From: a virus
Length of the DNA stretch: 56,521 bases
Direction: 5' to 3' (one strand)
Virus record (IMG/VR): IMGVR_UViG_3300000234_000003
Location: 1-56,521 of that record
Below the pieces are notes generated by a model. That model was not told where the DNA came from and ran no database searches. It saw only the letters and a list, made by a program, of their open reading frames with translations. A program made the position numbers and the translations under genes. Shown here piece by piece: positions 13,012 to 53,730 of this stretch (its first letter is position 1; each line of letters starts with the position of its first letter).

Positions 13012-13057
13012 AAAAAAATACTATGACCAATAGAGTTCATATAGAACTCTATTGGTC
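13012..13057 (-). terminator. Hairpin with CATAGTATTTTTTTT tail (shared repeat)
   Basis: A 14-bp stem (13025-13057), loop ATATA, containing CCAATAGAGTTC. On the minus strand it is followed by ATAGTATTTTTTTTC. The same stem sequence, with the same kind of tail, occurs at 53271-53321. Both lie just after a plus-strand gene and downstream of a minus-strand one, so the pair probably ends minus-strand transcripts or works from both sides. Confidence 0.6.
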
Positions 13058-13159: not shown

Positions 13160-13579
13160 TTAATAGATTACTTTTTTACCTACAACTTGTCTGGCAACAC
13201 GACAACTGGTTTTTGTTATAAATTTATCATCTTTTAATAGTGAAATAATTGCCTCAATAATTTTGGCGACACTGGCGTTATTCCTAGGGACAATGCACAT
13301 ATTATTTACTTCATAAGCCACACAGCTTAAGAGGTTTTTGTTATACAGATTATCCATTACCGTGAACACCGCCATAGCGTCAACGCTCATAGTGTTGTCA
13401 CGCGCCTTGATAAAATAATTTACCAGTGTCAATCTTGGTTTAATCGAGTCGCTATACTCCCTGATAGGGGATATAGTCCTAAAACTAGCGAGTTCTATTT
13501 TTACGCCCCACATAGCTAATATGGCCCCCATAACCAATTCTGTAGTTGTGGCGTCTCTTTTTAGATATGCCTTTTTCAT
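13160..13579 (-). CDS. Unknown small protein
   Basis: Encodes 139 residues with TAAGGAG upstream of the ATG. Basic at both ends, helical, one central region with cysteines (LLSCVAYEVNNMCIV). No known family, no clear membrane segment. It is a single-gene unit flanked by hairpins on both sides, which is typical of early or accessory phage genes. Base composition is less AT-rich than the neighbouring structural genes. Confidence 0.65.
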   Translation of the reverse strand: MKKAYLKRDATTTELVMGAILAMWGVKIELASFRTISPIREYSDSIKPRLTLVNYFIKARDNTMSVDAMAVFTVMDNLYNKNLLSCVAYEVNNMCIVPRNNASVAKIIEAIISLLKDDKFITKTSCRVARQVVGKKVIY

Positions 13580-13601
13580 TTAATCTCCTTAAGATCTACA
13601 T

Positions 13602-13628
13602 GGACTTCGGTGAAGTCCCTTTTTTTTT
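13602..13628 (+). terminator. Intrinsic terminator, plus strand
   Basis: GGACTTC-GGT-GAAGTCC followed by C and nine Ts: a canonical rho-independent terminator for plus-strand transcripts. It sits just upstream of the minus-strand gene starting at 13579, so it would stop transcripts coming from the helicase gene; on the minus strand the same stem would lie in the 5' leader of the 139-residue gene. Confidence 0.7.
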
Positions 13629-13675
13629 GTTAGCACTATCGCGACTACCGTATTAATGTCATAAATATAATATAT

Positions 13676-13688
13676 CAATATATATGTT
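13676..13688 (-). promoter_or_regulatory. Candidate phage promoter element (AACATATATATTG)
   Basis: Minus-strand AACATATATATTG about 100 bases upstream of the gene starting at 13579. It resembles the AACATAT elements at 7439, 8463, 19182 and 45380. Confidence 0.28.
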
Positions 13689-13725
13689 TATGATAACAAA
13701 AAAAAAGATTTCACTCGCGTAGTGG

Positions 13726-13973
13726 CTACACATCACTGTAGTACCCGTCACAGTAAACATGTGACATTTTTCTTTTTTCCAGTGTACATCTTTCGATATA
13801 CCCCAGAACCAGTAATATACTTTCGCATATTACTGGTGTGGGATCGTTTACATCCCACCACCCCTTACAGGGTGTCTTCTGTACCTTCTTCCTTTCCTAC
13901 AGCACCAGGTACATCTACCCATACGTATATGGGTAGGGTGGATGACATATATAGGGAGATACCCTATATATGT
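13726..13973 (+). other. Array of six stem-loops in a 540-base gene-poor stretch; possible structured RNA
   Basis: Between the genes ending/starting at 13579 and 14118 no convincing protein start is visible. Instead six consecutive stem-loops can be drawn: 13726-13741 (5 bp), 13747-13765 (6 bp, followed by a T-rich run), 13808-13837 (11 bp, loop ACTTTCGC), 13838-13858 (7 bp, directly abutting), 13915-13936 (9 bp, loop CGTA) and 13945-13973 (12 bp, then TTTT). The stretch is less AT-rich than its surroundings. It might be a phage non-coding RNA, a series of attenuators ahead of the holin candidate, or a regulatory leader. A reading frame does run through it into the next gene, but its residues do not look protein-like. 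Confidence 0.45.
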
Positions 13974-14117
13974 TTTGTAGGGATACCACTTATTATAGTA
14001 ATATCACCTTTATTATATGTAAATATAGATAGCTTGAAAACACATATAGAGTCAACATCTATAGTGGCTATTACATATAATAACATATTTACTTTGAATA
14101 AAAAAAAAGGAATAATT

Positions 14118-14459
14118 ATGACAAATCACAGGACTAAAGTGAGTTTTTTAACCATAGCTATGTTAGTGATAGTAGGTAACTTATTGATAGACCCAGATAT
14201 TGGTATCATATCTAATTTACCCTTTGGGATAAATATGGTCATCTTTATAAAAGGGGGCATTATGGGTATGTTTGTTATAGTGGTGGTGCATCAGTTACGA
14301 ACACTACTATTTGATAAAGGTGATGAGGACATTACGGACTATGTCTTAGTGGATACAGCTATCGCCCATCCTATAGGAGCTGGTTTAGTCTATATAGGTA
14401 GGAGCATCAGATTAGTGATGTACAGTGCCATAATTATGGGAGCTATTATATATTTATAA
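14118..14459 (+). CDS. Small three-segment membrane protein, holin candidate
   Basis: Encodes 113 residues; AAAAAGG eight bases before the ATG fixes the start. Three hydrophobic segments are visible: about residues 9-25 (FLTIAMLVIVGNLLI), 38-58 (NMVIFIKGGIMGMFVIVVV) and 88-113 (GLVYIGRSIRLVMYSAIIMGAIIYL). Small size, three likely membrane spans and a position convergent with the endolysin fit a class I-type holin that would let the endolysin or its activation proceed at lysis time. Because the endolysin carries a signal peptide, this could be a pinholin rather than a large-hole holin. An upstream in-frame ATG at 13929 would add a fourth hydrophobic segment but has no ribosome binding site. 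Confidence 0.5.
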   Translation: MTNHRTKVSFLTIAMLVIVGNLLIDPDIGIISNLPFGINMVIFIKGGIMGMFVIVVVHQLRTLLFDKGDEDITDYVLVDTAIAHPIGAGLVYIGRSIRLVMYSAIIMGAIIYL

Positions 14460-14462
14460 TTA

Positions 14463-14500
14463 ATAAAGTAACTATGTGGGTATCCACATAGTTACTTTAT
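14463..14500. terminator. Bidirectional terminator hairpin
   Basis: A 17-bp perfect stem with a GTAT loop between the convergent holin candidate and endolysin genes. Lower stem is A/T-rich, so either strand gives a hairpin with a weak U-tract. Confidence 0.65.
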
Positions 14501-49341: not shown

Positions 49342-49414
49342 CATTATTTAAAGAACAATAATGATAAAGTTGAAAGAGTAAGTGGGTTAACTTATTTATT
49401 AATAGAAATAAAGC

Positions 49415-49454
49415 ATGATAAAACAGAGTGACATTAGTCACTCTGTTTTATCAT
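49415..49454. terminator. Terminator hairpin after spanin genes
   Basis: An 18-bp perfect stem with ATTA loop (ATGATAAAACAGAGTGAC arm), 74 bases after the o-spanin stop. The A/T base of the stem gives a U-tract from the plus strand. The rest of the gap 49342-49564 shows nothing else. Confidence 0.65.
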
Positions 49455-49564
49455 ATAGATCGTTTATCCATTGACGACTCCTCTGTTCCGCTTATGTTCT
49501 GTGATAACCAGGTATAACATTGATATTTGTCAGTATTATATTTATCTCCGTCCCACTTTTAGAC

Positions 49565-49774
49565 TCATAGGGAGAGACGTGTTGCTACACTACATCCATT
49601 GAGGTTGAGTAAGCCTCTGACTGTCAGGTCGTATGGCAGTACGATGATTGGATTGTATGATAAATGAAGGTGTCTTACTGTATTAAGGTCTGTATCATTC
49701 CATTTTATGTCAAGTGCCTCTTCTATGGCACTTATCGTCTTTTGACCTTCTATGGTGTACTCTTCTTTCTTCAT
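49565..49774 (-). CDS. Tiny leucine-rich-repeat-like protein
   Basis: Encodes 69 residues; AAAAGGA six bases before the ATG fixes the start. After a helical N-terminus the sequence LNTVRHLHLSYNPIIVLP and VRGLLNLNGCSV resembles one and a half leucine-rich repeats. Such a short unit might be a binding module that blocks a host target, or a remnant of a longer protein. The DNA is less AT-rich than its neighbours. A small hairpin (ATCACAC-CGA-GTGTGAT) lies in the leader near 49813. Confidence 0.5.
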   Translation of the reverse strand: MKKEEYTIEGQKTISAIEEALDIKWNDTDLNTVRHLHLSYNPIIVLPYDLTVRGLLNLNGCSVATRLSL

Positions 49775-49916
49775 TTTAATCCTTTTCCGTGGTAGGTCAC
49801 GACCCAAATTATATCACACCGAGTGTGATGAATAGACACAGTAAAATACTCCAGAGAGGTGACACCGTCGTTAATGCCATCTATATAATATAATTATAAA
49901 AGATATTGAAAACGCA

Positions 49917-53270: not shown

Positions 53271-53321
53271 AAAAAAAAATAAACACTATGCCCCAATAGA
53301 GTTCGTGTAGAACTCTATTGG
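53271..53321 (-). terminator. Hairpin with CATAGTGTTTATTTTTTTT tail (shared repeat)
   Basis: A 12-bp stem (CCAATAGAGTTC, 53293-53321) and, on the minus strand downstream, GCATAGTGTTTATTTTTTTT. The stem sequence is the same as at 13025-13057, with a differing loop. It lies in the narrow gap between the convergent SbcC-like gene and the 132-residue gene. Confidence 0.6.
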
Positions 53322-53331
53322 TTGTAGACTC

Positions 53332-53356
53332 TTATCTTGGGGGTAACCCAAGATAA
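53332..53356 (-). other. Hairpin over the end of the 132-residue gene
   Basis: TTATCTTGGG-GGTAA-CCCAAGATAA, a 10-bp stem that contains the gene's stop codon; directly followed by the shared hairpin at 53293-53321, giving a two-hairpin end like the one at 13012-13143. Confidence 0.5.
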
Positions 53357-53730
53357 TTCCACATGATTTTTTCTCTACCTGTTACGGCAAAGAATCCCGC
53401 GGCGTGGACGAATTCCATACTGTTGTCTGGGTCAAAGGCTTTGCCTTTGAAGTCGAAAGAGCCCACTACGGTGGGTACTTTCTGTGTCTTCCACTCGGTA
53501 GTGGTTATATCGCACCATACCACTGTGTGGTATTTTGTCAATGTTGGGTCATTACACAATGCCTCTTGCCAGCCTGGCAGGCAGTTGGCCATTAAAAGGG
53601 TCGGCCCATAACGGCCGACTCCGACATCTACACTGCTTTCAAGTATAGCACGTCGTGTCTCGTATAGCATGTCTTGTTGGGTCTTAAGGCTGGTTACGTA
53701 TGTTTCTATAATTTCACACGCTTTGTACAT
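53332..53730 (-). CDS. Unknown small protein downstream of portal candidate
   Basis: Encodes 132 residues; the ATG lies inside the end of the portal candidate gene (17-base overlap) with only a weak GGGA upstream. Trp-rich, with a helical N-terminus and strand-rich remainder (VVWCDITTTEWKTQKVP). No known family. Markedly less AT-rich than the neighbouring genes, which suggests a separate origin. May be a head accessory protein or an inserted gene of unrelated role. Confidence 0.6.
   Translation of the reverse strand: MYKACEIIETYVTSLKTQQDMLYETRRAILESSVDVGVGRYGPTLLMANCLPGWQEALCNDPTLTKYHTVVWCDITTTEWKTQKVPTVVGSFDFKGKAFDPDNSMEFVHAAGFFAVTGREKIMWNYLGLPPR

Follow-up and report, generated by a model that had tools for sequence, protein, structure and literature searches.

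The locus and its hairpins

The window analysed here is a 56.5-kb stretch out of a 63.8-kb virus record. Judged by its genes, which include those for a terminase, a major capsid protein, a divergent DnaB helicase, a tail sheath, a phiKZ vertex-binding protein and RNA polymerase beta-type subunits, the genome is that of a phiKZ-like jumbo phage. Its nearest relatives share about 25-32% protein identity (about 27-30% for the nearest IMG/VR contigs), and its sheath and helicase are about 22-34% identical to those of named phages. A profile search for relatives recovered loci at about 22-32% identity throughout, 78 for DnaB and 14 for the sheath; no close relative was present in the collections searched, and neither exact peptide patterns nor a scan of genome contigs returned one.

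The region of interest falls within the gap at 13580-14117 (538 nt), which the original prediction had called the largest gene-poor stretch; it shares the top two places with the gap at 49342-49916, which has a similar length unless the 80-aa ORF in it is a real gene. To one side lies an ORF of 139 aa on the minus strand (13160-13579), the product of which gives no confident model in structure prediction (pLDDT 42). To the other side, on the plus strand, lies the gene of a 113-aa protein with hydrophobic stretches, the "holin candidate" (14118-14459, coding score 0.101), preceded by a Shine-Dalgarno-like AAAGGA before its ATG. Neither product has a family match in protein-family, PADLOC or tblastn searches. 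A perfect 17-bp hairpin (14463-14500) separates this membrane-protein gene from the convergent endolysin gene.

Seven hairpins (13726-13741, 13747-13765, 13808-13837, 13838-13858, 13859-13874, 13914-13937 and 13944-13974) are present where the original prediction had placed its run of stem-loops, and together they are far beyond chance: in RNA folding of 13720-13980, z = -6.3 for the plus strand and z = -8.45 for the minus strand, with 0 of 200 dinucleotide shuffles as stable on either strand. The clean terminator predicted at 13602-13628 was also recovered, as a terminator-like hairpin (13602-13618, plus strand, GGACTTC-GGT-GAAGTCC) with a T9 tail; read on the minus strand, it lies inside the leader of the 139-aa gene. 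Two other terminator-like hairpins of the window, 40 kb apart (13025-13057 and 53293-53321), have an identical 12-bp stem (CCAATAGAGTTC/GAACTCTATTGG).

Hairpin coverage was scanned in 159,616 windows of 300 nt from this contig and related phage sequence (1.63 Mb). The top rank goes to the minus strand of 13707-14006, with nine hairpins covering 198 of its 300 nt, and this window also leads for hairpins with GNRA or UNCG caps, of which it has four. Computation establishes the structure of the region, its extremeness and its strand bias.

Strand and architecture of the fold

The original prediction had taken the run for a structured non-coding RNA of the phage; the structured RNA is supported but its strand was wrong, the minus strand being the better fit by fold, loops, wobble pairs and promoter-like motif. 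Over 309 nt (14003-13695), the minus strand folds at -120.5 kcal/mol (z = -8.4), stabler than its composition explains, versus -95.1 kcal/mol (z = -5.6) for the plus strand. The strand difference in folding is modest by itself, because that of the 261-nt core is equalled in about 5% of the contig's 261-nt windows (both directions counted). The loops add to it: the minus strand has the tetraloops UACG, GUAA, GAAA and GAAA, which the plus strand lacks, and against these four, only 2 of about 220 hairpins elsewhere on the contig's minus strand have GNRA or UNCG loops. Wobble-type appositions in strand-neutral stems comprise four G-U pairs on the minus strand, which would read A-C on the plus strand, versus none on the plus strand (p = 0.06); the count from each strand's own best fold, 10 on the minus strand versus 1 on the plus strand, is a biased one. 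Reading such a region on the wrong strand hides its most informative features. The loop first written as ACTTTCGC, for example, turns out on the minus strand to be a longer stem capped by GAAA, and the minus-strand fold brings out two arms beyond those originally listed, P7 (13778-13807) and P3 (13880-13913).

The proposed RNA comprises about 305 nt of the minus strand (14004-13698, both ends putative; folded as the 309 nt above), with arms in the order P1 to P8 from 13973 to 13747. P1 (13973-13945) is a 12-bp hairpin with the loop UAUCU (p = 0.99), P2 (13936-13915) a 9-bp hairpin with the UNCG-type loop UACG (p = 0.97), and P3 (13913-13880) a 7-bp hairpin with a purine-rich loop of 20 nt (GGUGCUGUAGGAAAGGAAGA; p = 0.91). 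P4, P5, P6 and P7 abut without any linker: P4 (13874-13859) has 5-6 bp and the GNRA-type loop GUAA, which requires a U-G closing pair (p = 0.99); P5 (13858-13838) has 7 bp and the 7-nt loop GUAAACG; P6 (13837-13808) has 13 bp and a GAAA tetraloop (p = 0.97); and P7 has 7 + 5 bp around an internal mismatch, also with a GAAA tetraloop (p = 0.96-0.99). P8 (13765-13747) has 6 bp and the 7-nt loop UGUUUAC. In the minus-strand fold, a possible closing helix of 9 bp, P0 (13989-13981 with 13746-13738, pairing probability 0.85), would join the two ends of the array; it is tentative, because 5.8% of flank shuffles pair equally well.

The loops of P5 and P8 are complementary at 7 of 7 positions (six Watson-Crick pairs and one G-U), a level of pairing attained by 2 of the 4,753 loop pairs of the contig. 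Among nearby hairpin pairs (n = 23), P5/P8 is the only one with at least six Watson-Crick loop pairs, and the plus-strand versions of these two loops contain a C-A mismatch. A kissing contact between P5 and P8 is possible.

Transcription signals and competing explanations

Just upstream of the proposed RNA is a promoter-like motif, TTACATATAATAA (14022-14010, minus strand), which is its putative promoter. Only one other exact copy exists in the window, on the plus strand at 14071-14083, about 35-45 nt before the ATG of the membrane protein; with two mismatches allowed, the motif is not enriched in the window. A sigma-70-like TTTTCA-17-TATAAT (14040-14012) overlaps the minus-strand copy. The shorter motif ACATATWA has four intergenic copies on the minus strand versus 0.7 expected, three of them preceding genes by 38-54 nt and one preceding the RNA. 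Also on the minus strand, ATATTAT with a TATG no more than a few bases after it is found only at 13673, 8470 and 19189, always 50-94 nt before a gene, and is a candidate for a promoter consensus of this phage. A possible 3' end of the RNA is the U9 tract at 13706-13698; it is preceded by a weak, non-canonical stem and was not among the minus-strand terminators called by a consensus scan. The lack of a strong stem directly before the U9 tract counts against a stand-alone RNA.

On balance, and with modest confidence, we interpret the stretch from about 14004 to 13698 as a stand-alone structured RNA of the minus strand. A phage promoter arranged divergently to that of the small membrane-protein gene would probably start the transcript near 14004, and transcription would probably stop close to the U9 tract (13698). 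The hairpin at 14463-14500 should isolate the RNA from transcripts of the endolysin gene, which lies on the same strand. The transcript of about 300 nt would fold into eight hairpin arms, three or four of them capped by GNRA/UNCG tetraloops, and the complementary 7-nt loops of P5 and P8 could form an intramolecular or an intermolecular kissing contact. Because the promoter-like motif is a separate one and the fold is compact, the likeliest mode of action of the RNA is in trans, as a stable folded molecule, alone or with protein. As an antisense target, only a single 14-nt complement was found, inside the terminase gene, which is not significant (about 0.1-0.2 expected by chance, an estimate).

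A possible but doubtful alternative is that there is no separate RNA and the 139-aa gene has a long, structured 5' leader, the fold serving as a cis-acting attenuator or riboregulator. The fold is on the same strand and immediately upstream of that gene with only a weak terminator between, such a leader would also hold the terminator-like hairpin at 13602-13618, and a 180-nt 5'-UTR-derived RNA upstream of p40 in phiKZ is a precedent (PMC8545117). However, the 139-aa gene has its own promoter-like motif, the ATATTAT...TATG at 13673, which is separate from that of the RNA; it lies 94 nt ahead of the start codon, on the far side of the U9 tract.

The plus strand offers a quite unlikely explanation, a chain of terminators or attenuators that insulates or times the membrane-protein gene. 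T-rich tails do follow the hairpins at 13602-13618 and 13747-13765, and hairpin arrays also occupy intergenic gaps of the relatives, but most of the other hairpins have no T tract on this strand, on which the fold is worse; the tetraloops and wobble pairs, too, suit the minus strand. The multi-step attenuator timing lysis that was one option of the original prediction is disfavoured by the same lack of T tails on most hairpins and by the position of the plus-strand copy of TTACATATAATAA, which lies past the hairpins but ahead of the start of the membrane-protein gene (14118). Because that copy is downstream of the hairpins, the membrane-protein mRNA probably does not contain them.

It is still less probable that the plus strand is coding and extends the N-terminus of the membrane protein (to 245 aa from a GTG at 13722), the DNA being only incidentally rich in inverted repeats. 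The plus-strand frame of 13722-14117 is stop-free for 132 codons and in frame with the membrane protein. Dinucleotide shuffles reproduce this in 5 of 20,000 cases; when only the hairpin part is shuffled and its pairs are preserved, that frame stays open in about 0.9% and any plus frame in 3.6%. This stop-free frame is an unexplained counter-signal to the RNA reading. On the other side, codon usage in the core (-0.129 per codon) is below that of every one of 1,336 main-gene windows (minimum -0.064), no ribosome-binding site was seen at the upstream starts, whereas the ATG at 14118 has the phage-wide AAAGGA-type site, and the 245-aa product has no match in protein-family, PADLOC or tblastn searches. 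The codon test is not absolute, because an unrelated ORF (53332-53730) scores nearly as low although its product looks protein-like; even so, the plus-strand stretch is probably not a gene. The ORF at 53332-53730 is GC-rich (GC3 0.50), differs in codon usage from the remainder of the phage, has a strong predicted structure and no family match for its product, and was possibly acquired recently. Finally, palindromes are features of DNA too and the phage encodes an SbcC-like protein, of a family tied to palindrome cleavage, but a role as extruded or single-stranded DNA (a replication origin, a protein-binding site or a hairpin site for a phage enzyme) is the least probable of these explanations, the strand-biased wobble pairs and RNA-type tetraloops favouring RNA and the arms sharing no repeated recognition sequence.

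Search for homologues and comparison with known RNAs

Searches for homologues of the proposed RNA were negative. At the gathering threshold Rfam matched nothing in the window, and relaxing the limit to E = 5 brought up only chance-level hits to unrelated families in the region; ARAGORN found no tRNA or tmRNA in the 56.5-kb window; blastn against GenBank phages returned a single chance-level match; and an exact scan of IMG/VR for a 19-nt piece of P5 found none. A covariance model, weak in that it was built from a single sequence, recovered only the RNA itself and weak fragments from about 1.7 Mb of related loci, and nothing from 49 whole viral records; since the model rests on one sequence, distant homologues could be missed. 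One weak match in a related locus (L033, E = 0.2) was rejected as a homologue, as it folds no better than shuffles (z = -1.3). Also rejected as a homologous position was the structured region that follows the major capsid gene in the relatives, a gap that holds terminators and a capsid extension instead. With no homologue in Rfam, phages, related loci, viral records or the IMG/VR scan, the RNA is an orphan. The absence of a homologue, and hence of covariation and conservation, counts against the RNA reading.

The gap after the capsid gene has features of its own. In nine relatives (L015, L016, L018, L020, L022, L027, L046, L076 and L080), and more distantly in L043 and L050, the major capsid ORF ends in TGA followed by an in-frame extension of 15-18 aa, which is conserved (e.g., RTRLVDVTDLGGFQIYSG) with many third-position changes, a pattern resembling programmed readthrough of the UGA stop in the capsid protein; the capsid ORFs of most other relatives end in TAA, as does the capsid gene of the window, which has no extension. 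In L015, L020, L022, L027, L043, L050, L079, L080 and others, this gap contains long hairpins followed by TTTATGCCGT or a close variant, which suggests a clade-specific terminator or processing motif; TTTATGCCGT is not enriched in the window. On the minus strand of the gap, L009 (4625-5062, z = -9.3) and L010 (4671-5117, z = -7.4) are strongly structured, have short sequence blocks in common and possibly encode another structured RNA of the clade.

To our knowledge, few non-coding RNAs have been described in phiKZ-type phages. Kissing pairs of the ColE1 RNAI/RNAII type are formed by 7-nt loops complementary over their full length, as are those of P5 and P8, but here both loops are in one RNA and there is no context of plasmid replication. 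The packaging RNA of phi29 is likewise a phage RNA with two complementary hairpin loops able to link molecules; the RNA proposed here, in contrast, has no Rfam match, comes from a different type of phage and does not share its shape.

Candidate non-coding RNAs derived from untranslated regions have been reported in phiKZ itself, from the 3' UTR of PHIKZ298 (about 100 nt) and the 5' UTR of p40 (180 nt) (PMC8545117). These too are stem-looped non-coding RNAs of a phiKZ-type phage, but they are two-stem fragments of mRNAs, whereas the proposed RNA has eight arms and its own promoter-like motif. ROOL and GOLLD are large, ornate RNAs of phages and prophages, with GOLLD members often exceeding 800 nt (PMC12286853). 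The proposed RNA resembles them as a phage-encoded, many-armed structured RNA, but it is only about 300 nt long and does not match their Rfam covariance models. Whereas ROOL and GOLLD make kissing-loop contacts, and form homo-oligomers through kissing loops and A-minor contacts, the counterpart here is a predicted complementarity between two 7-nt loops; the association of ROOL and GOLLD with tRNA islands is common but not universal, and this window has no tRNA. By the tests that could be run, the RNA belongs neither with ROOL and GOLLD nor with the UTR-derived RNAs of phiKZ. A speculative and rather unlikely extension of the stand-alone reading is that this eight-armed RNA of about 300 nt, with GNRA/UNCG caps and a kissing pair of 7-nt loops, founds a new class and assembles into a defined tertiary or multimeric particle during giant-phage infection. 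If the stand-alone reading is true, a compact, independently transcribed and heavily structured RNA of this kind would be a component testable for host-factor capture, RNase evasion and ribosome binding.
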